From NCBI RefSeq assembly GCF_900105785.1, contig NZ_LT629799.1, forward strand, positions 1,674,001-1,738,000: a DNA stretch of 64,000 nucleotides. Direction: 5' to 3'. The position numbers and the translations under genes were made by a program. The stretch's first letter is position 1; each line of letters begins with the position of its first letter. The stretch is from Microlunatus sagamiharensis (GTDB taxonomy: Bacteria; Actinomycetota; Actinomycetes; Propionibacteriales; Propionibacteriaceae). Of the stretch, positions 31,357 to 42,395 are shown piece after piece. The notes under the pieces were generated by a model that was given only the letters and a program-made list of their open reading frames with translations, had not been told where the DNA came from and searched no databases.

Positions 31357-33912
31357 GTGCCTGCGGAGCTGACGCTCGGCGCCGAGGAGGAGCTGCACCT
31401 CGTCGACCTGGACAGCCGCCGGCTGGTCGGACGGGCGCCGCAGCTGCTGTCGCGGCTGCCGGCGAGCAGCTACTCCGCCGAGATCCAGCGCACCACGGTC
31501 GAGACGAACACCGAGGTCGTCAGCACCCTCGACGGGCTGCGGGCCGAGCTGCTGCGGCTGCGGAGGCTGCTGGTCACCGAGGCGGAGCGCGACAACGTCG
31601 GCATCGCCGCGGCCGGGACCGCCCCGAGCGCGGCGCACGCGGACATCGAGCTCACCACGACCGGGCGCTACGGGCGCATGCAGGAGCAGTACCGGATGCT
31701 CGTCGACGAGCAGCTGATCTGCGGACTGCAGATCCACGTCGGCGTCTCCGACCGCGACCTGGCTGTCGAGATCATGCAGCGCGTATCCCGCGACCTGCCG
31801 GTGCTGACCGCGCTGTCGGCCAGCTCGCCGTACTTCAACGAGCAGGACACCGGCTACTCCTCGATCCGCACGATCATCTGGCAGCGCTGGCCCACCGCCG
31901 GTGCGACCGGGCCGCTGCGCTCGGCGGCCGAGTACGACGCGCTGCTCGCCGACCTGATCCGCTCGGGCGTCATCGCCGACGAGAAGATGGCCTACTTCGA
32001 CGTCCGCCCGTCCTCGCACGCCCCGACGCTCGAGCTGCGGGTCTGCGACGCCTGCCCGGTCGTGGACGACGCGATCCTCATCGCCGGGCTGTTCCGCGCC
32101 GCCGTCCGGGCGGCGGAGATCGACGTGCTGGAGGGACGCCCGTACGAGCCGGTGCCCGCGCCGGTGCACCGGGCCGCGCTCTGGCAGGCCGCGCGCGGCG
32201 GCCTGCGGGGCAACCTGCTCGACCACGACCTGCACCCGCGGCCGGTCCCCGCGGCCGACGCCGTCTGGGCCATGGTCGAGCGGCTGGCCGGCCCGCTGGC
32301 CGAGCTCGGCGACGACGACGAGGTGCGCTGGCTGGCCGAGTCGGCGCTGGCCCGGGGCAACTCGGCGGACCGGCAGCGGGCGGCGTACGCCGAGCGGGGC
32401 CTGCTGAGCGACGTCATGGACCTGGTCGTGGCCGAGACCCGCGGCCCGGCCGAGGGCCCGCGTCCGGCCGCGCCGGAGCTGCGGCGCTACCGCTCCCGCG
32501 CCGGCGACGAGGCCGTCGGGGCGAACCGGCGCCCGCGGCCCGCGTACGAGGGGCTGGTCGAGGTGTTCCGCGACCTCGACGCCGACCGCATCGACGCCCG
32601 GGCCCGGGCCCGCGACACGTGGGTCGCCGAGCACGGGCTGACCTTCGGGGTCGAGGGCACCCAGCACCCCTTCAACGTCGACCTCGTGCCCCGGGTCGTC
32701 GCGCCCCACGAGTGGCGCGACCTCGCCAACGGGCTGGGCCAGCGGGCGCGGGCGATCGAGGCCTTCCTGCGCGACGTGTACGGCGAGCAGCGCGTGCTCC
32801 ACGACGGCGTGCTCTCCCCCGACCTCGTCGTCGGCGCCCCGGGCTGGCGCGAGGAGGCGCGGCGGCTGCCGGCCGACGCCGTCCGCGCGCCGGTGATGGG
32901 CTTCGACCTGGTGCGCAACGAGTTCGGCGGCTGGCGGGTGCTCGAGGACAACGTCCGCAACCCGTCCGGCGCCGGCTTCGCCCTCGCCATCCGCGAGCTC
33001 CTCGACGACGTCATGCCCGACCTGCCCCGCCCGCCGGGGCTGCTCGACCCGGCCGACGCGATGCCCCTGCTGCGGCGCACGCTGCTCGGCGGGGGCGACG
33101 AGGGCACCGCCGCGCTGCTCTCGAGCGGGCCGTCGAGCTCGGCCTGGTTCGAGCACCGGCTGCTGGCCGAGCGAGCCGGCCTCGTGCTCCTCACCGCGGA
33201 CGAGCTGACGGTGACCGACGGCGAGGTCCGCGACCGCCGCGACGGCCGCCGGGGTCCTCGTCTGGACGCCCTCTACCTGCGCCTGGACGTCGAGCTGGTC
33301 GACCTCGTCGACGCGGCCGGGCACCCGGTCGGCGCCGAGGTCCTCGACGTCGCGGCCGCGGGCGGGGTCCGGCTGGCCAACGCCCCGGGCAACGGCGTCG
33401 CCGACGACAAGGCGATGTACTGCTACGTGCCCGAGCTGATCGGCTACTACCTCGGCGAGTCGGCGAGCCTGGAGTCGGTGCCGACCTACCGCACGAGCGA
33501 GGAGGCGGAGTACCGCCTCGTGCTCGACCGGGTCGGCGAGCTCGTGACCAAGCCCGTCGACGGCCACGGCGGCGCCGGCGTGCTCATCGGCCCCGACGCC
33601 TCGGCCGCCGAGGTGGCGCACCGCCGGGCCGAGATCGCCGCCGCGCCCGCCCGCTGGGTCGCCCAGGAGGTCGTCGCGCTGTCCTCGCACCCGACGCTCG
33701 CCGGGAGCCTGCTGCAGCCGCGGCACGTGGACCTGCGGGTCTTCACCTACCTGACCGGCCCCGGTCCCGACGACGTCACGATCGCCAAGCTCGGGCTGAC
33801 CCGGATGGCCCCCGAGGGCTCGTTGGTGGTGAACTCCTCGCGCGGCGGGGGCGCCAAGGACACGTGGGTCGTGGGCCGGACGGACGACGAGGCAGAGCGG
33901 GGTGAGCGGTAG
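31357..33912 (+). CDS. Fusion of GCS2/YbdK carboxylate-amine ligase and circularly permuted ATP-grasp
   Basis: Protein of 851 aa with two predicted ATP-dependent peptide-bond-forming modules. Residues 1 to about 370 match the glutamate-cysteine-ligase-2/YbdK family (LTLGAEEELHLVD, TTVETNTEV, CGLQIHVGVSDRD, LELRVCDACPVVDD). From about 395 to 845 it matches circularly permuted type-2 ATP-grasp (FNVDLVPRVVAPHEW, VYGEQRVLHDGV, LEDNVRNPSGAGFA, KPVDGHGGAGVLIG, SSRGGGAKDTW). GTG 31357 has GGGGGA 3 nt upstream. Its TAG stop directly abuts the ATG of the amidotransferase. A pathway with two ligations plus amidation is inferred; substrates are unknown. Confidence 0.85.
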   Translation: MPAELTLGAEEELHLVDLDSRRLVGRAPQLLSRLPASSYSAEIQRTTVETNTEVVSTLDGLRAELLRLRRLLVTEAERDNVGIAAAGTAPSAAHADIELTTTGRYGRMQEQYRMLVDEQLICGLQIHVGVSDRDLAVEIMQRVSRDLPVLTALSASSPYFNEQDTGYSSIRTIIWQRWPTAGATGPLRSAAEYDALLADLIRSGVIADEKMAYFDVRPSSHAPTLELRVCDACPVVDDAILIAGLFRAAVRAAEIDVLEGRPYEPVPAPVHRAALWQAARGGLRGNLLDHDLHPRPVPAADAVWAMVERLAGPLAELGDDDEVRWLAESALARGNSADRQRAAYAERGLLSDVMDLVVAETRGPAEGPRPAAPELRRYRSRAGDEAVGANRRPRPAYEGLVEVFRDLDADRIDARARARDTWVAEHGLTFGVEGTQHPFNVDLVPRVVAPHEWRDLANGLGQRARAIEAFLRDVYGEQRVLHDGVLSPDLVVGAPGWREEARRLPADAVRAPVMGFDLVRNEFGGWRVLEDNVRNPSGAGFALAIRELLDDVMPDLPRPPGLLDPADAMPLLRRTLLGGGDEGTAALLSSGPSSSAWFEHRLLAERAGLVLLTADELTVTDGEVRDRRDGRRGPRLDALYLRLDVELVDLVDAAGHPVGAEVLDVAAAGGVRLANAPGNGVADDKAMYCYVPELIGYYLGESASLESVPTYRTSEEAEYRLVLDRVGELVTKPVDGHGGAGVLIGPDASAAEVAHRRAEIAAAPARWVAQEVVALSSHPTLAGSLLQPRHVDLRVFTYLTGPGPDDVTIAKLGLTRMAPEGSLVVNSSRGGGAKDTWVVGRTDDEAERGER

Positions 33913-35697
33913 ATGTGCGGCTTGAGCGGGGAGATCCGCTTCGACGGGCGCGCGGCGGACGTCGCCGCCTGCGCCTGCGCGACCGACGCCATGCAGCGGC
34001 GGGGCCCGGACGGCTCCGGGGTGTGGGCGCGCGGCCCGGTCGCGCTCGGCCACCGGCGGCTCTCGATCATCGATCTCAGCGCCGCGGGCAGCCAGCCCAT
34101 GGTCGACGCCGAGCTCGGGCTGTCGGTCGTCTTCAACGGCTGCATCTACAACTACAAGGCGCTGCGCGCCGAGCTCGAGGGCCTGGGGCGTCGCTTCTTC
34201 TCCACCTCCGACACCGAGGTGATCACCAAGGCGTACGCGCAGTGGGGCACCTCCTGCGTCGACCACCTGCTGGGCATGTTCGCCTTCGCCGTCGTCGAGC
34301 ACGCGACCGGTCGGCTGGTGCTCGCCCGCGACCGGCTGGGCATCAAGCCGCTCTACCTCGACCACACCCCCGAGCGGCTGCGGTTCGCCTCGACGCTGCC
34401 CGCGCTGATCGCCGCCGGCGTCGGCGACACCTCGATCGACCCCGTCGCGCTCGCCTGCTACATGAGCTTCCACAGCATCGTGCCGCCGCCGCGCACGATC
34501 CTCAACGGCGTCAAGAAGCTGCCGCCGGCCACCGTCCGCGTCGTCGAGCGTGACGGCACCTGGCGCGAGCACACCTACTGGTCGCCCTCCTTCACCCGCG
34601 ACGCCGAGCGCGCCGGCTGGAGCAGCCGCGACTGGGAGGAGGCGCTCCTGGAGTCGCTGCGCGTCGCGGTCGAGCGGCGGATGGTCGCCGACGTGCCGGT
34701 CGGTGTGCTGCTGTCCGGCGGCATCGACTCCTCGCTCGTGGTCGCGCTGCTGGCCGAGGCCGGGCAGAGCGACCTGGCGACGTTCAGCATCGGCTTCGAC
34801 AGCAGCGGCGGCGAGCGCGGCGACGAGTTCGAGTACTCGAGCCTGGTCGCGGAGCGCTTCGGCACCGACCACCACCGCATCGCCATCGACGGCTCCCGGC
34901 TGCTGCCCGGCGTGTCCGCAGCCGTCGCGGCGATGAGCGAGCCGATGGTCAGCCACGACTGCGTCGCCTTCTTCCTCCTCAGCGAGGACGTGAGCAAGAG
35001 CGTCAAGGTCGTGCAGTCCGGGCAGGGCGCGGACGAGGTGCTCGGCGGCTACGACTGGTACCCGCCGCTCGCCGGCGTCGCGCGCGAGGACGCCGTCGAG
35101 GCGTACGCGGACGTGTTCTTCGACCGGCGCTGGTCGGCCATGCCGTCGTTGCTGTCGCGCGGGTGGCTCGTCGACCACGACGCCCCGTACGCCTTCGTCG
35201 CCGAGCGGTTCGCCGCCCCGGGCGCGGACACCGCCGTGGACGCCGCGCTGCGCAGCGACACGACCGTGATGCTCGTCGACGACCCCGTCAAGCGGGTCGA
35301 CAACATGACCATGGCCTGGGGCCTGGAGGCGCGGGTGCCCTTCCTCGACCACGAGCTCGTCGAGCTGGCCGGGCGCATCCCGCCCGAGCTCAAGCTCGCC
35401 GACGGCGGCAAGGGCGTGCTCAAGCGCGCGGCCCGCGGGGTCGTGCCCGACGAGGTCATCGACCGGACCAAGGGCTACTTCCCCGTCCCGGCCATCCGCC
35501 AACTCCAGGGCCCGGTGCTCGGGCTCGTCCGCGACGCGCTGACCGACCCGGCGGCGCGACGACGCGGGCTCTTCCGCACCGACACCGTCGAGGCGATGCT
35601 CGCCGACCCCAACCGGACCCGGACGCAGCTGGGGTCCAACGCGCTGTGGCAGCTGGGGCTGCTGGAGATGTGGCTCCAGCACCACGGGGTCGGCTGA
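33913..35697 (+). CDS. AsnB-type amidotransferase, resembling N-acetylglutaminylglutamine amidotransferase
   Basis: Class II glutamine amidotransferase fused to an asparagine-synthetase-like ATP pyrophosphatase; 594 aa. Cys2 (MCGLSGEIRFDG) is the glutaminase nucleophile. RRGPDGSGVW, GHRRLSIIDLS, FNGCIYNY and SDTEVI follow. The synthetase half has the PP-loop LLSGGIDSSLV and SGQGADEVLGGY. From memory, the wording SFHSIVPPPRTILNGVKKLP and the overall pattern resemble the amidotransferase of NAGGN osmolyte clusters more than general AsnB. It is translationally adjacent to both neighbours: ATG directly follows the ligase stop, and the peptidase GTG is 1 nt beyond its stop. Confidence 0.85.
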   Translation: MCGLSGEIRFDGRAADVAACACATDAMQRRGPDGSGVWARGPVALGHRRLSIIDLSAAGSQPMVDAELGLSVVFNGCIYNYKALRAELEGLGRRFFSTSDTEVITKAYAQWGTSCVDHLLGMFAFAVVEHATGRLVLARDRLGIKPLYLDHTPERLRFASTLPALIAAGVGDTSIDPVALACYMSFHSIVPPPRTILNGVKKLPPATVRVVERDGTWREHTYWSPSFTRDAERAGWSSRDWEEALLESLRVAVERRMVADVPVGVLLSGGIDSSLVVALLAEAGQSDLATFSIGFDSSGGERGDEFEYSSLVAERFGTDHHRIAIDGSRLLPGVSAAVAAMSEPMVSHDCVAFFLLSEDVSKSVKVVQSGQGADEVLGGYDWYPPLAGVAREDAVEAYADVFFDRRWSAMPSLLSRGWLVDHDAPYAFVAERFAAPGADTAVDAALRSDTTVMLVDDPVKRVDNMTMAWGLEARVPFLDHELVELAGRIPPELKLADGGKGVLKRAARGVVPDEVIDRTKGYFPVPAIRQLQGPVLGLVRDALTDPAARRRGLFRTDTVEAMLADPNRTRTQLGSNALWQLGLLEMWLQHHGVG

Positions 35698-35698
35698 C

Positions 35699-37579
35699 GT
35701 GGGGGCCCGTGCGCTCGCCGACGCGGTGCGCCTCGGCGAGGAGCTGGTCGACGCCTGGGGCAGCTGGGCACCCACCCTCTCGCCGGACTGCCGGCGGATC
35801 GCCTTCGTCAGCGACCGGACCGGCACCCCGCGGCTCTTCGTCCAGGACCTCGTGCTCGCTGCGGAGGCCGTCGAGGGCGCAGAGCCGCCGGCGGCCCGCG
35901 AGGTCGTCCTCACCGACGACCCGGTGGTCGAGGTGCACTGGTCGGCCGACGGTGGCTGGCTGGCCTGCGCGCTGGCCACCGGCGGCGGCGTGCGTACGCA
36001 GGTGTGGGTCGTGCGCCCGGACGGTTCCGACGCGCGGTGCGTCGCGGGCTCGGCCGACGTGCACGCCGAGCTCGGCCCGTGGACCCGCAGCGGGCACCGC
36101 GTCAGCGTCTCCGTCCCGGGCGAGGGCCTCGGCGACCCGACGCGGGCGTTCCTCGTGGACCCGGCGACCGGGGAGCAGCACCCGCTGGCCGAGGGCGAGC
36201 TCATCAGCGTGCTCGACCTGTCGAGCGACGAGGACTTCGTGGTGCTGCGCGACGGGCAGCGCGGGCGGCAGTTCTGCGTGGTCGTCGACCGCGTCGCCGA
36301 CGCCGACCACCCGCTGCTGCCCTACCCGGCGACCGGGTCCACCGACCGCGCGTTCGTGCGCCCCGCCCCGCCGGGGGACCCGACGTCCGGGGACGCGCCG
36401 CTGATCGCCTACCTCGCGACCGACGCCGGGCTCCCCCGCCGCCAGCTCCTCGCGATCCCGCTCGGCCCGTCCGGCTGGCGCGGGCAGTCCGGCGTGCTCG
36501 CGCCGCGCTCGGACGCCGAGCTCGAGGGGCTCGACGCCGACGACGCCGGGCACCGGCTGCTCGCGGTCTGGAACGTGGCCGGCGGACGCTCCGAGCTCGA
36601 GCTCGTCGACGCCTGGACCGGCGAGACCTCGGTCGTCGAGGGCCTGCCGGGCGCGGTGGTAAGCGGGATGCTGCTCAGCCGCGACGGATCGACCGCGCTG
36701 ATGGCCGTCGAGGGCCCCGAGCGGCCGCGCGAGCTGTGGTGCCTCGACGTGGCGACCCGGACGTGGTCGCTCGCCACGGCGCGTCCGCCCCGCACGGCGG
36801 CGCGGCTGGTGACGCCCACGCTGGAGTTCCTGCACGGGCGCGACGGGCTGCCGCTGACCGGCTGGCTCTACCGGCCGCCGGGCTGGACGGGCGCGGGCCC
36901 CGCGATGCTGAGCCTGCACGGGGGGCCCGAGGCCCAGGAGCGGCCGACCTTCAACCCGCAGCACCAGGCGGTCGCCGCCGCCGGGATCGCGGTCTTCGCG
37001 CCGAACATCCGCGGCTCGTCGGGCTTCGGCCGCGCCTTCGTCCACGCCGACGACGTGCACGGGCGCCGCGACGCGTTCGACGACGTGCTCGCGTGCGCGG
37101 AGTTCCTGGTCCGGCTCGGGGTCGCCGAGCCCGGGTGCGTCGCGGTGAGCGGGCGCTCGTACGGCGGTTACCTCACCCTGGCGATGCTCGCCTTCTCCCC
37201 CGGCGTCTTCGCCGCCGGCGTCGCGGTCTGCGGGATGTCGGACCTGCACACCTTCTACCGCGACACCGAGCCCTGGATCGCCGCGGCCGCCGTCACCAAG
37301 TACGGCGACCCCGAGCGCGACGCGACCCTGCTGCGCGCCCTCTCGCCGATGCAGCAGGTCGCGAACATCGACGTGCCCCTGCTCGTCGCCCACGGCGAGC
37401 TCGACACCAACGTGCCCTTCGGCGAGGCGACGCAGGTCGTCGCCGCCCTGCGCGACCTCGGGCGGCCCGTGCAGTTCCTGCCGATCCCCGGCGAGGGCCA
37501 CGACTACCGCCGTGCGGAGTCGCGCCGGCTGCTGCTCGGCACGATGCTGCTGTTCCTCGACGAGGCCCTCGACCCCTGA
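35699..37579 (+). CDS. S9-family serine peptidase (prolyl oligopeptidase type)
   Basis: Protein of 626 aa, no signal peptide, so cytoplasmic. The N-terminal 370 residues look like a beta-propeller lid (WGSWAPTLSPDCRRIAFVSD and similar repeats). The C-terminal alpha/beta hydrolase carries Ser487 in SGRSYGGYL, an acidic residue in HGELDTNVP (D569) and His601 in GEGHDYRR. It could trim or degrade the peptide-like product of the two upstream enzymes, as the M42 peptidase does in proteobacterial NAGGN clusters; that role is inference. Start GTG 35699, 1 nt after the amidotransferase stop. Confidence 0.88.
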   Translation: MGARALADAVRLGEELVDAWGSWAPTLSPDCRRIAFVSDRTGTPRLFVQDLVLAAEAVEGAEPPAAREVVLTDDPVVEVHWSADGGWLACALATGGGVRTQVWVVRPDGSDARCVAGSADVHAELGPWTRSGHRVSVSVPGEGLGDPTRAFLVDPATGEQHPLAEGELISVLDLSSDEDFVVLRDGQRGRQFCVVVDRVADADHPLLPYPATGSTDRAFVRPAPPGDPTSGDAPLIAYLATDAGLPRRQLLAIPLGPSGWRGQSGVLAPRSDAELEGLDADDAGHRLLAVWNVAGGRSELELVDAWTGETSVVEGLPGAVVSGMLLSRDGSTALMAVEGPERPRELWCLDVATRTWSLATARPPRTAARLVTPTLEFLHGRDGLPLTGWLYRPPGWTGAGPAMLSLHGGPEAQERPTFNPQHQAVAAAGIAVFAPNIRGSSGFGRAFVHADDVHGRRDAFDDVLACAEFLVRLGVAEPGCVAVSGRSYGGYLTLAMLAFSPGVFAAGVAVCGMSDLHTFYRDTEPWIAAAAVTKYGDPERDATLLRALSPMQQVANIDVPLLVAHGELDTNVPFGEATQVVAALRDLGRPVQFLPIPGEGHDYRRAESRRLLLGTMLLFLDEALDP

Positions 37580-37611: not shown

Positions 37612-37657
37612 CGGCATCATGCCGAGGAGGGAAAGCCCCAGCACCGCAGGAGGAAGC

Positions 37658-38014
37658 ATGAGCGTTCTGGTCGCCGTCACCGACAGCGCCGAGGGCCGGG
37701 CCGCCCTGGAGGCCGCGGCCAACGAGGCCGACCTGCTCAACGTGCAGCTCACCGTCGTCAACCTCACCGGCGCCGACCTCGACCTCACCTCGATCGCGAC
37801 CGAGGTCCCGTACGAGGTGGTCGTCCCGCACGCGGGCGCCGACGTGGACGAGGTCGAGCAGGTCCTCGCCGCCATCGAGGACCGCGCCGAGGTCACGCGG
37901 CTCGTCGTCGGCGTCCGCAAGCGCTCGCCCATCGGCAAGGCCGTGCTCGGCAGCATCGCGCAGCGCCTGATCCTCGAGGCGACGGTGCCCGTGCTGTCGG
38001 TCAAGACCAGCTGA
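37658..38014 (+). CDS. UspA-like universal stress protein
   Basis: Protein of 118 aa, cytoplasmic. It opens with SVLVAVTDSAEGRAALEAA and ends with the nucleotide-loop pattern VGVRKRSPIGKAVLGSIAQRLI followed by VPVLSVK, the Usp C-terminal signature. It is shorter than typical 140-160-aa Usp domains, having a short middle. ATG 37658 has AGGAGGA 4 nt upstream. The signal is not known. Confidence 0.88.
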   Translation: MSVLVAVTDSAEGRAALEAAANEADLLNVQLTVVNLTGADLDLTSIATEVPYEVVVPHAGADVDEVEQVLAAIEDRAEVTRLVVGVRKRSPIGKAVLGSIAQRLILEATVPVLSVKTS

Positions 38015-39052: not shown

Positions 39053-40570
39053 CTACGTCAGGCGCTCCAGCACGAGCTCGCGGACGCGGCCCGCGTCGGC
39101 CTTGCCGCCCATGGACTTCATGACGGCACCGATCAGGGCGCCGGCGGCCTGGACCTTGCCCGCGCGGATCTTGTCGGCGACGGCCGGGTTGGCGGCGATG
39201 GCCTCGTCCACGGCGGCACCGAGGGCGCCGTCGTCGGAGACGACCGCGAGCCCGCGGGACTTTACGACCGCGGTCGGCGAACCCTCACCGGCCAGCACGC
39301 CCTCCAGCACCTCGCGGGCGAGCTTGTCGTTGATCGTCCCGGCGTCGACCAGGCCCTGCAGCTCGGCCACCTGCGCGGGGGTCACGCCGAGCGCGTCGAG
39401 CTCGACGCCGTCGTTGTTGGCCCGCCGGGCGAGCTCGCCGAGCCACCACTTGCGCGCCGACTGCGGCGAGGCACCGGCGGCCACAGTCGCCTCGACCAGG
39501 TCGAGCGCCCCGGCCGCGACGACGTCGCGCAGCTCCGCCTCGCTGAACCCCCACTCCGCGCTCACGCGGCGCAGGCGGACGGCGGGCGCCTCGGGCAGCG
39601 AGGCCCGCAGCTCCTCGACCCACGCCGCCGACGGTGCGACGGGCACGAGGTCGGGGTCGGGGAAGTAGCGGTACTCCTCCGCCTGCTCCTTGCTGCGCCC
39701 CGGCGAGGTCGTGCCGGAGGTCTCCTGCCAGTGGCGCGTCTCCTGCTTGACCCGGCCGCCGTCGGCGAGCACCGCGGCCTGCCGCGTCATCTCGAAGCGG
39801 ACGGCGCGCTCGACGCTGCGCAGCGAGTTGACGTTCTTGGTCTCGGTGCGGGTCCCGAGCGGGGCGTCCGGGGAGGGCCGCAGCGACACGTTCGCGTCGC
39901 AGCGCAGCGAACCCTGCTCCATGCGCACGTCGGACACCCCGAGCGAGCGGAGCAGGTCGCGCAGCATCGAGACGTACGCCCGCGCCACCTGCGGCGCGTA
40001 CTTGCCCGCGCCCTCGATCGGGCGCGTCACGATCTCGATGAGCGGCACGCCCGAGCGGTTGTAGTCGAGGAGCGAGTGGTCGGCGCCGTGGATGCGCCCG
40101 GTCGACCCGCCGACGTGCAGCGACTTGCCGGTGTCCTCCTCCATGTGCGCGCGCTCGATGTCGATCCGGTACGTGCGCAGCACGCCCTCGTCGTCGGGCA
40201 CCTCGACCTCGGCCCAGCCGTCGTGGGCGATGGGCTCGTCGTACTGGCTGATCTGGTAGTTCTTCGGCTGGTCGGGGTAGAAGTAGTTCTTCCGCGCGAA
40301 GCGGCACCACGACGCGATCGAGCAGTTCAGCGCCAGGCCGATCCGCACCGCCGACTCGACGGCACGCGCGTTGACCACGGGCAGCGAGCCCGGCAGCCCG
40401 AGGCAGACCGGGCAGACCTGCGTGTTCGGCTCGGCGCCGAACTCGGTCGAGCAGCCGCAGAACATCTTCGAGGCGGTGTTCAGCTCGACGTGGACCTCGA
40501 GCCCGAGGACGGGGTCGAAGCGGGCCACGACGTCGTCGTAGTCCATGACCTCAGCGGTGGTGGTGCTCAC
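39053..40570 (-). CDS. gatB: Asp/Glu-tRNA amidotransferase subunit B
   Basis: Binds mischarged Glu-tRNA(Gln)/Asp-tRNA(Asn) and activates it for transamidation; 505 aa. [23 protein letters not shown] is the signature start, with zinc-type cysteines CGC and CPVC, then IEIVTRPI and RCDANVSL. The C-terminal GatB/YqeY tail ends at 39053. The GTG start overlaps the gatA stop by GTGA. Confidence 0.97.
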
Positions 40571-42099
40571 TTGGCGACTCCTCCTTCGTGCACGGCGAGC
40601 TCCGGGGCCTGCGCCAGCAGGGGGCCGCCCCAGCGCTCCTCCAGCGCCCGCTCCAGCGCGGCGCCGACCCGGTAGAGCCGGTCGTCGGCCAGCGGCGGCG
40701 CCATGACCTGCAGCCCGACGGGGAGCGCGTCCTCGGGCGCGAGCCCGACCGGGAACGACGCGCTGGCGTTGCCGGCGAGGTTCGAGGGGATGGTGCAGAG
40801 GTCGTTCAGGTACATCGCGAGCGGGTCGTCGACCTTCTCGCCGAGGCGGAACGCGGTGGTCGGCGTCGAGGGCGACACGAGCACGTCCACCTGCGCGAAC
40901 GCGGCCTCGAAGTCGCGCGAGACGAGCGTGCGCACCTTCTGGGCTTGGCCGTAGTAGGCGTCGTAGTAACCGCTCGACAGCGCGTACGTGCCGAGGATGA
41001 TGCGGCGCTTGACCTCGGCGCCGAAGCCGGCCTCGCGAGTCAGCCCCATGACCTCCTCGGCGCTGCGGCTGCCGTCGTCGCCGGCCCGCAGGCCGAACCG
41101 CATGCCGTCGAACTTGGCCAGGTTGGAGCTCGCCTCGCTCGGCAGCACCAGGTAGTACGCAGGCAGCGCGTAGGAGAAGTTCGGGCAGGACACCTCGACG
41201 ACCTCGGCCCCGAGCCCGGCGAGGGTCTCGACCGCCTCGTGGAAGCGCTGCTCGACGCCGGGCGCGTAGCCCTCACCGCCGAGCTCGCGCACCACGCCGA
41301 TCCTCATGCCGCGCACGTCGCCGGAGCGGGCCGCGCCGACGACGTCGGGCACCGGCGCGTCGATCGAGGTCGAGTCGCGCGGGTCGTGCCCGGCGATCAC
41401 CTGGTGCAGCAGGGCCGCGTCGAGGACCGTGCGCGCGCAGGGGCCGGGCTGGTCGAGGCTCGACGCGAGCGCGACGAGGCCGTAGCGCGAGGTGCCGCCG
41501 TACGTCGGCTTGATGCCGACGGTGCCGGTGACCGAGGCGGGCTGGCGGATCGAGCCGCCGGTGTCGGTGCCGATGGCCAGGGGCGCCTCGTACGCGGCGA
41601 CAGCGGCCGCTGAGCCGCCGCCGGAGCCGCCGGGGATCCGGTCGAGGTCCCACGGGTTGTGCGTGGGTCCGTACGCGGAGTTCTCGGTCGAGGAGCCCAT
41701 GGCGAACTCGTCGAGGTTCGTCTTGCCGAGGATGACCAGGCCGGCGTCGAGCATCCGGCGCGTGACGGTGGCGTCGTACGGCGGGACCCAGCCCTCGAGC
41801 ACCTTCGACCCGCAGGTCGTCGGGGCGCCGGCCTGGGTCAGCACGTCCTTGAGCGCGACGGGCACGCCGGCCAGCGGGCCGAGCGGCTTGCCCTCGGCGC
41901 GGTCGGCGTCGACGCGCGCCGCGGCGGCCAGCGCCCGCTCGCCGTCGACGTGCAGGAAGGCGTGGACCGCCGGCTCGACCGCGGCCATCCGGTCGAGGTG
42001 GGCCTGGACGACCTCGACCGAGCTGGTCTCGCCCGAGGCGATGGCGGTGGCCAGGTCGGCCGCGGTACGGCGGGTCAGGTCGGTGCTGCTCGTGCTCAT
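40567..42099 (-). CDS. gatA: Asp/Glu-tRNA amidotransferase subunit A
   Basis: Amidase subunit releasing ammonia from glutamine; 510 aa. The Ser-cisSer-Lys triad region shows [10 protein letters not shown] (Lys), [15 protein letters not shown] and [13 protein letters not shown] (both serines). ATG 42099 overlaps the gatC stop by one base (TGATG). It works with GatB and GatC in a cytoplasmic complex. Confidence 0.97.
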
Positions 42100-42395
42100 C
42101 AGCCCTCCTCCCCCAGGATCCGCGGGACGCGGAACCGGTCCTCCTCGGCCGCGGGCGCGCCGGCCAGGGCGGCCTCGCGCGGCATCGAGGGCACGACGAC
42201 GTCGGCGCGCTGGACGTTGTCCAGCGGCAGCGGGTGCGACGTCGGCGGGATGTCGTCGGCCGCGACCTCGGAGACCTTGGCGACGGCCTCGAGGATCGCG
42301 TCGAGCTGGGGCGCGAGGTGCTCCAGCTCGGCCGGGGTCAGCTCGATCCGGGCCAGGCGGGCCAGGTCGGCCACGTCGTTCGGCGTGAGGGCCAC
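42099..42395 (-). CDS. gatC: Asp/Glu-tRNA amidotransferase subunit C
   Basis: Small GatC (98 aa) that wraps GatA and Gat[14 protein letters not shown] and the acidic linker to [13 protein letters not shown] are typical, ending in [10 protein letters not shown] 42395 is the start; a purine-rich AGAGGAAG lies rather far upstream (about 13 nt). First gene of gatCAB. Confidence 0.93.

Follow-up and report, generated by a model that had tools for sequence, protein, structure and literature searches.

The closest described relatives of the locus analysed here are the operons for synthesis of N-acetylglutaminylglutamine amide (NAGGN). As outlined in two reports (PMC5563000, PMC8070244), the synthetase Ngg acetylates glutamine and joins it to a second glutamine, and the amidotransferase AsnO then amidates the product. 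Production of NAGGN by Micromonospora provocatoris, and a rise of an amidotransferase of Frankia alni on polyethylene glycol, are stated in PMC8146288 and PMC5768760, respectively. We analysed a 64,000-nucleotide stretch of Microlunatus sagamiharensis DNA, referred to below as the window (positions 1674001-1738000 of the 4.4-Mb single-contig genome, NZ_LT629799.1), and focused on an operon of three genes that encode a fusion ligase (gene 1), an amidotransferase of the NAGGN type (gene 2) and a peptidase of family S9 (gene 3). Judging from the sequences and their distribution, we lean slightly towards the view that this operon specifies a NAGGN-type peptide-amide pathway in which both the ligase and the hydrolase have been exchanged.

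The operon had first been described in an initial annotation made from the letters of the window, as three genes separated by gaps of 0 and 1 nt. Coordinates, strand, spacing and domains were all confirmed (Table 1), and the three-gene observation is real and conserved. Microlunatus flavus is the nearest named relative at the operon, with identities of 88, 91 and 85% for proteins 1, 2 and 3.

Table 1. The three genes of the operon, in window coordinates.
Gene	Product	Coordinates	Strand	Length and start codon
Gene 1	GCS2–CP-ATP-grasp fusion ligase (CP, circularly permuted)	31357..33912	+	851 aa, GTG start
Gene 2	NAGGN-type amidotransferase, AsnB fold	33913..35697	+	594 aa, ATG start
Gene 3	S9 (prolyl-oligopeptidase family) peptidase	35699..37579	+	626 aa, GTG start

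Gene 2 ties the operon to NAGGN. The initial annotation had noted a Cys2 amidotransferase resembling the NAGGN enzyme, and this proved accurate: the protein begins MCG, consists of a GATase (Cys2 glutaminase) domain and an Asn_synthase domain with an SGGIDSS loop, and scores 953 bits against the NAGGN amidotransferase model TIGR03104 (cut-off 570). As is general for TIGR03104 members, the cut-off of the broad asn_synth_AEB model is exceeded too (409 bits against 267), the TIGR03104 score being more than twice as high. All seven further copies that we scored, whether linked to the fusion, to a stand-alone GCS2 gene or to Ngg, pass TIGR03104 as well (903-1037 bits), and two AsnB-like rows stay under the cut-off (350 and 321 bits). 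A quick tree of 123 rows sets 114 NAGGN-type rows, chosen for their resemblance to gene 2 and scored against the model in part, apart from nine AsnB-like rows with a support of 99. A careful tree of 53 rows likewise splits 49 NAGGN-type rows from four AsnB-like ones (support 100/100) and places gene 2 outside the AsnB-like group, which in both trees is made up of below-cut-off matches from relatives and includes no biochemically studied AsnB. At 55 positions, at least 95% of the 114 NAGGN-type rows share one residue that never occurs in the nine AsnB-like rows, only a few of which have a letter at some of these positions. The model score and both trees rule out an ordinary AsnB asparagine synthetase. 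Ngg-linked and fusion-linked amidotransferases differ from one another at just 8 positions (at least 85% in each group), and because the enzyme is nearly unchanged from its NAGGN form we infer that its acceptor group is also unchanged and is probably the C-terminal glutamine carboxylate of a peptide. One Ngg-linked amidotransferase (L042:6195-7973, minus strand) begins MSG, with the Cys2 nucleophile replaced by serine; it is the sole such row among the 123 and may be ammonia dependent.

The exchange of partners is visible on comparison with relatives of the window's genome. TIGR03104 was matched over its cut-off in 11 of 57 relatives, nine of which belong to Microlunatus (the window's own genome included) and carry the fusion, the amidotransferase and the S9 gene in the same order; the other 11 of the 20 genomes of the genus gave no TIGR03104 match over the cut-off. 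Neither the Ngg synthetase (TIGR03103) nor the M42 peptidase of the NAGGN system (TIGR03106) was found in any of these 20 genomes, including the window's own, at E values up to 1e-60, and these genome-wide searches rule out a canonical NAGGN operon whose partners lie elsewhere in the genome. Ngg was present in two of the 57 relatives and M42 in the same two (G020 and G028), both from other genera of the same family. In each, Ngg adjoins the amidotransferase (748 and 735 bits, respectively; cut-off 569), and M42 is a neighbour encoded on the opposite strand in G020; in G028 it lies on a different contig. Since the same amidotransferase is found with Ngg and M42 in these close relatives, the replacement of both partners can be observed directly. 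The initial annotation had proposed just this, namely NAGGN logic with both partner enzymes replaced, and its interpretation is supported, subject to an amendment concerning the ATP-grasp that is given below. Neither of the two sequence-based outcomes that it had named as refuting came about: the amidotransferase does not group with the AsnB-like proteins, and the three genes are found together in many genomes. The initial annotation had also treated the canonical trio as proteobacterial, which must be corrected, given that the trio occurs in the same actinobacterial family.

Gene 1 has the two-part build that had been read from the window, and both of its domains were recovered by Pfam. The N-terminal half matches PF04107 (GCS2; residues 7-280, 153 bits, cut-off 21) and, in a match that reaches residue 361, NF010041 (343 bits, cut-off 332); the C-terminal half matches PF14403 (CP_ATPgrasp_2, circularly permuted ATP-grasp type 2; residues 445-818, 350 bits). 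Its relatives in the PDB are 1r8g/1tt4 (YbdK type) and 3n6x (CP-ATP-grasp). Residues D517, E530-D531-N532, K685 and K732 are invariant across nine orthologs and matched in 3n6x, and we take D517, E530, N532, K685 and K732 to be metal/ATP ligands as in glutathionylspermidine synthetase (GspS). The N-terminal domain is accordingly of the YbdK carboxylate-amine ligase type, and its family suggests gamma-glutamyl ligase activity. The Pfam scan found no acetyltransferase domain in gene 1. The ergothioneine enzyme EgtA was also considered and rejected, the Streptomyces-type GCS2 proteins being weakly similar to it (33 bits, cut-off 371). An AlphaFold prediction for gene 1 was of low quality (predicted local distance difference test score, pLDDT, 55 on average) and was set aside. 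To our knowledge, the cellular products of YbdK-type GCS2 proteins and of circularly permuted ATP-grasps are undefined.

The initial annotation had called gene 3 a cytoplasmic S9 peptidase, which agrees with a match of 154 bits to PF00326 (Peptidase_S9) and with an N terminus that, by eye only, is polar and devoid of any signal-like stretch; a cytoplasmic location is consistent with these features. Ser487, Asp569 and His601, which we presume to form the catalytic triad, are invariant in nine orthologs. The best NCBIfam match of gene 3 is the lasso-peptide isopeptidase model NF033523 (Atxe2 type), at 70 bits well under the cut-off of 400; this similarity would fit an enzyme that cleaves a gamma-glutamyl (isopeptide) bond, although only as a weak hint.

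A scan of a genome collection returned at least 505 confirmed stretches with the fusion, and the best 80 of these, all actinobacterial by title, served as our fusion loci. Neighbour calls in them rest on tblastn and profile matches, as a simple ORF (open reading frame) caller at times misassigned the strand, the DNA being rich in GC. Sixty of the 80 loci contain the amidotransferase, in every case immediately after the fusion and in the same orientation, and 57 contain an S9 gene. All three families co-occur in 54 of the 80 actinobacterial loci, and their order is conserved far beyond chance. Among the 20 loci without an amidotransferase, 16 extend for about 10 kb downstream, three have an S9 gene directly after the fusion and one lies at a contig edge. 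Whole-genome searches of the 16 solo-fusion loci yielded no TIGR03104 match at E values up to 1e-60.

The peptidase travels with the amidotransferase even where the two are not neighbours. An S9 match above 500 bits was found in nine of nine tested genomes with the amidotransferase, among them three Geodermatophilaceae with the S9 gene at an unlinked position (951, 523 and 505 bits). None of the 16 genomes with the fusion alone gave such a match, their best S9 score being 120 bits (25 of 25 genomes agree). In a sign test that scored S9 states from gene adjacency or from the genome search above 500 bits, the joint state of S9 and amidotransferase agreed in six of six independent pairs (P = 0.031, the minimum possible for six); the test used 73 of 77 rows, with L047, L068, L099 and L195 left out and 12 Curtobacterium loci not entered. 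Solo fusions are scattered over the fusion tree, in which L099 (truncated by the end of its contig) and L195 counted as operon rows, and well-supported branches force at least 6 changes. With operon lineages interspersed between them, the solo fusions do not form a separate old group. We read the joint absences of amidotransferase and S9 (at least 6 independent changes) as losses.

In an even sample of 396 actinobacterial genomes, the full-length fusion turned up rarely (in 5 of them). TIGR03104 was found in 46 genomes and Ngg in 32, all of them among the 46 carriers (30 over the cut-off and two partial). The other 14 carriers lack Ngg, and in 12 of these a GCS2 domain, whether fused, split or alone, is adjacent to the amidotransferase. 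It takes the form of the fusion in G000, G161, G382 and G460, of separate GCS2 and CP-ATP-grasp genes in G205, G311 and G453, and of a GCS2 gene adjoining the amidotransferase in G196; a GCS2 gene was placed at L193:10152-11292. Four large genomes (G098, G203, G268 and G320) have the order GCS2–amidotransferase–S9 and no PF14403 match, so GCS2 alone must supply the substrate there. The fused ATP-grasp is therefore not essential, and to this extent the proposal of the initial annotation did not stand. In G151 a CP-ATP-grasp gene is adjacent and GCS2 was not seen. Conversely, neither GCS2 nor CP-ATP-grasp was found beside the amidotransferase in the 28 of 32 Ngg genomes whose flanks (mostly 1.5 kb) were read, and the other four gave no such match on the amidotransferase contig, with two candidates scored per genome. 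By tblastn, GCS2–amidotransferase–S9 also occurs in Nonomuraea gerenzanensis and Embleya sp. NBC_00888, and Streptomyces fungicidicus has GCS2, the amidotransferase and then an alpha/beta fold hydrolase.

The hydrolase varies as well. A DUF1028 gene follows the split-type amidotransferase in G205 and G311 and the amidotransferase in G151 (L187:7000-7788, L186:9062-9784 and L188:9745-10419), the contig of G453 ending inside the amidotransferase; DUF1028 is possibly a third exchangeable hydrolase. In a Geodermatophilus locus (L100:16110-16988), a DUF1028 gene is likewise found some 2 kb further downstream. At L185:3252-9615, the order is amidotransferase, S9, a GntR regulator and a cytosine/purine-type permease, with no ligase nearby, possibly an uptake or recycling version of the system. 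The Frankia "Ngg", which according to PMC5563000 is less than 15% identical to its counterparts elsewhere and has a dipeptidase between the genes, may represent another exchanged ligase.

The trees also bear on how often the ligase was swapped. In the quick amidotransferase tree the split GCS2/CP-ATP-grasp type is nested inside Ngg-linked rows, and in the careful tree the fusion- and GCS2-linked group is also nested (support 81/98). These topologies favour at least two changes. However, approximately unbiased (AU) tests reject no alternative, neither that which unites the 27 GCS2/CP-ATP-grasp-linked rows in one clade (P = 0.44) nor that which unites the 21 Ngg-linked rows (P = 0.52), and exactly two swaps are not established.

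We propose the following route. The GCS2 domain would activate the side-chain carboxyl of glutamate with ATP and join it to an amino acid, giving gamma-Glu-X; the fused ATP-grasp would add one residue to the carboxylate of X, by logic of the GshF type; the amidotransferase would convert the C-terminal carboxylate to an amide with ammonia from glutamine; and the S9 enzyme would hydrolyse the product once it is no longer needed. The predicted products are gamma-Glu-X-Y-NH2 where the ATP-grasp is present and gamma-Glu-X-NH2 where it is absent, and the operon's own is probably a new small peptide amide, which would serve as a NAGGN-like solute. As the amidotransferase is almost unchanged, the residue amidated is probably still glutamine. 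The fully specified structures are doubtful guesses: gamma-Glu-Gln-Gln-NH2 ([M+H]+ 403.1936) from the fused form, and gamma-Glu-Gln-NH2 ([M+H]+ 275.1350) where GCS2 stands alone. Both would be net-neutral zwitterions, suited as compatible solutes. A broader and tentative possibility is that the NAGGN pathway was rebuilt around GCS2 chemistry, once or more, such that "NAGGN" amidotransferases of streptomycete-type bacteria, Microbacteriaceae, Geodermatophilaceae, Kineococcus and Microlunatus would make gamma-glutamyl peptide amides of a new family (dipeptides without and tripeptides with the CP-ATP-grasp) as compatible solutes, with a class-matched hydrolase (S9 or DUF1028) following the product.

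Several findings speak against a peptide-amide pathway with exchanged partners, at least in its strict form. In 16 of the 80 loci, in genomes without TIGR03104, the fusion is retained with no amidotransferase, so that the product of the ligase must there be of use in un-amidated form or have some other role, and amidation is not its sole use. In three genomes with the fusion and S9, the amidotransferase sits elsewhere, in a separate canonical Ngg operon; these are Quadrisphaera-like genomes (L088, L091 and L095, with L178-L180) in which a canonical amidotransferase-Ngg operon coexists with a fusion-S9 pair that has no amidotransferase of its own. L195 (G391; L195:7788-11353) has the fusion followed by S9 and no amidotransferase was found in the genome, which is 87% complete; it is a counter-example to a strict rule of S9 with amidotransferase. 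G372 has the amidotransferase followed by S9 with no adjacent ligase and no Ngg. Among the ten recurring neighbour groups that we annotated, none is an osmotic regulator linked to the operon. In 10 of 18 Curtobacterium loci (e.g., L115:16250-17257), and in no other genus among the loci examined, S9 is followed in the same orientation by a gene for a GNAT-family acetyltransferase; this gene may reflect synteny by chance or a fourth, acetylating step, and it would suit an acetylated product there. Finally, both the gamma-glutamyl linkage and the sequence of the two ligation steps are extrapolations from the GCS2/YbdK and CP-ATP-grasp families.

With the same enzymology, the product might be no osmolyte but a secondary metabolite, a signal, or a peptide that serves redox functions or the storage of nitrogen. 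The kinship of GCS2 with glutamate-cysteine ligases, the lack of an osmotic regulator among the annotated neighbours and the 16 genomes that keep the un-amidated version all point that way, yet we regard it as rather unlikely: many of the carrier genera are, by name, from dry soil or leaves, habitats typical of them, the operon retains its three-role layout of ligase, amidotransferase and hydrolase, and studied members of the amidotransferase family serve osmoprotection according to PMC8070244. That NAGGN or another N-acetylated peptide amide is still made, with the fusion as an analogous ligase and a separate GNAT as the acetylating enzyme, is unlikely. The near-identity of the amidotransferase, the S. 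fungicidicus record, which names the middle gene N-acetylglutaminylglutamine amidotransferase, and the Curtobacterium acetyltransferase would all suit it; but that acetyltransferase was found in one genus only among the loci examined, gene 1 has no acetyltransferase domain of its own, and GCS2 chemistry predicts a gamma-glutamyl bond. Moreover, the hydrolase switches along with the ligase (S9 or DUF1028 for M42), which suggests a changed substrate.

Two further explanations are less probable still. Gene 1 could be a GshF analogue that makes a glutathione- or bacillithiol-like thiol peptide, with the amidotransferase incidental. We consider this quite improbable: the domain logic does resemble that of GshF, and NCBIfam gives its GCS2 matches the name glutamate-cysteine ligase, but the GshF models TIGR01435 and NF002688 are absent among the 10 families that gene 1 matches, and the amidotransferase is too regular a next gene (60 of the 80 loci). 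Least probable of all, and by our estimate very hard to sustain, is a peptide-tagging or protein-modification system, a role that has been proposed for CP-ATP-grasp/Alpha-E operons. A second CP-ATP-grasp in the window's genome (L001; G000:C1:3742649-3746527) does adjoin an Alpha-E gene, the usual setting of this family. However, the Alpha-E (PF04168) matches in the genome, at 518332-519321 and 3744149-3745027, lie far from the window and not in the operon, and in a tree the fused ATP-grasps group apart from 15 of 16 generic CP-ATP-grasps (support 87), the sixteenth, L175 (a long row), falling among the fused ones.

The surroundings of the operon vary. Nine of the ten annotated neighbour groups are restricted to one or two genera, and the widest, an ABC (ATP-binding cassette) transporter ATPase, occurs in 21 of the 80 loci at varying distance. 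In the window, a small ORF directly after the operon (37619-38014, plus strand) resembles by eye a UspA-type universal stress protein, and tblastn found none in the other loci searched. Three genes at 39053-42395 on the minus strand resemble gatB, gatA and gatC (tRNA amidotransferase) by eye; they are ordinary and lie outside the operon.

If an exchange of partners is correct, many actinobacterial amidotransferases, a large share of the whole, would carry a mistaken automatic NAGGN label (in the phylum sample, 14 of 46 carriers are without Ngg), a new class of small peptide amides would await detection in well-known soil and leaf genera, and both the YbdK-type GCS2 and the circularly permuted ATP-grasp would gain a concrete, testable reaction. 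The stand-alone GCS2 form separates off one ligation step, and the chemistry should thus be dissectable with natural variants. We found no link of GCS2 or CP-ATP-grasp to a NAGGN amidotransferase among the papers listed by literature searches, as judged from titles and the beginnings of abstracts; passages from PMC10513789 and PMC10979467 hold nothing on such a pairing.

In relation to known systems, the amidotransferase family and the NAGGN logic are established, and what appears to be new is the swapped ligase and hydrolase and, probably, the product. With the asnO-ngg-M42 operons (TIGR03104/TIGR03103/TIGR03106; Sinorhizobium meliloti and Pseudomonas aeruginosa PA3459-PA3461) the locus shares an amidotransferase of the same family, over the curated cut-off, and a three-gene layout with a ligase and a peptidase beside it; unlike them, it has a GCS2–CP-ATP-grasp fusion and an S9 peptidase in place of Ngg (GNAT/ATP-grasp) and M42. 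In the bifunctional glutathione synthetase GshF, a gamma-glutamyl ligase domain is followed by an ATP-grasp in one polypeptide, the same succession of domain types as in gene 1, whose domains nevertheless come from other families (GCS2/YbdK and circularly permuted ATP-grasp). By profile, the two halves of gene 1 are members of the YbdK/NF010041 ligases and the 3n6x-type CP-ATP-grasps, but here they are fused together and tied to an amidotransferase, which gives them a pathway context. The CP-ATP-grasp/Alpha-E operons, finally, draw on the same ATP-grasp family, whereas the operon described here contains no Alpha-E.

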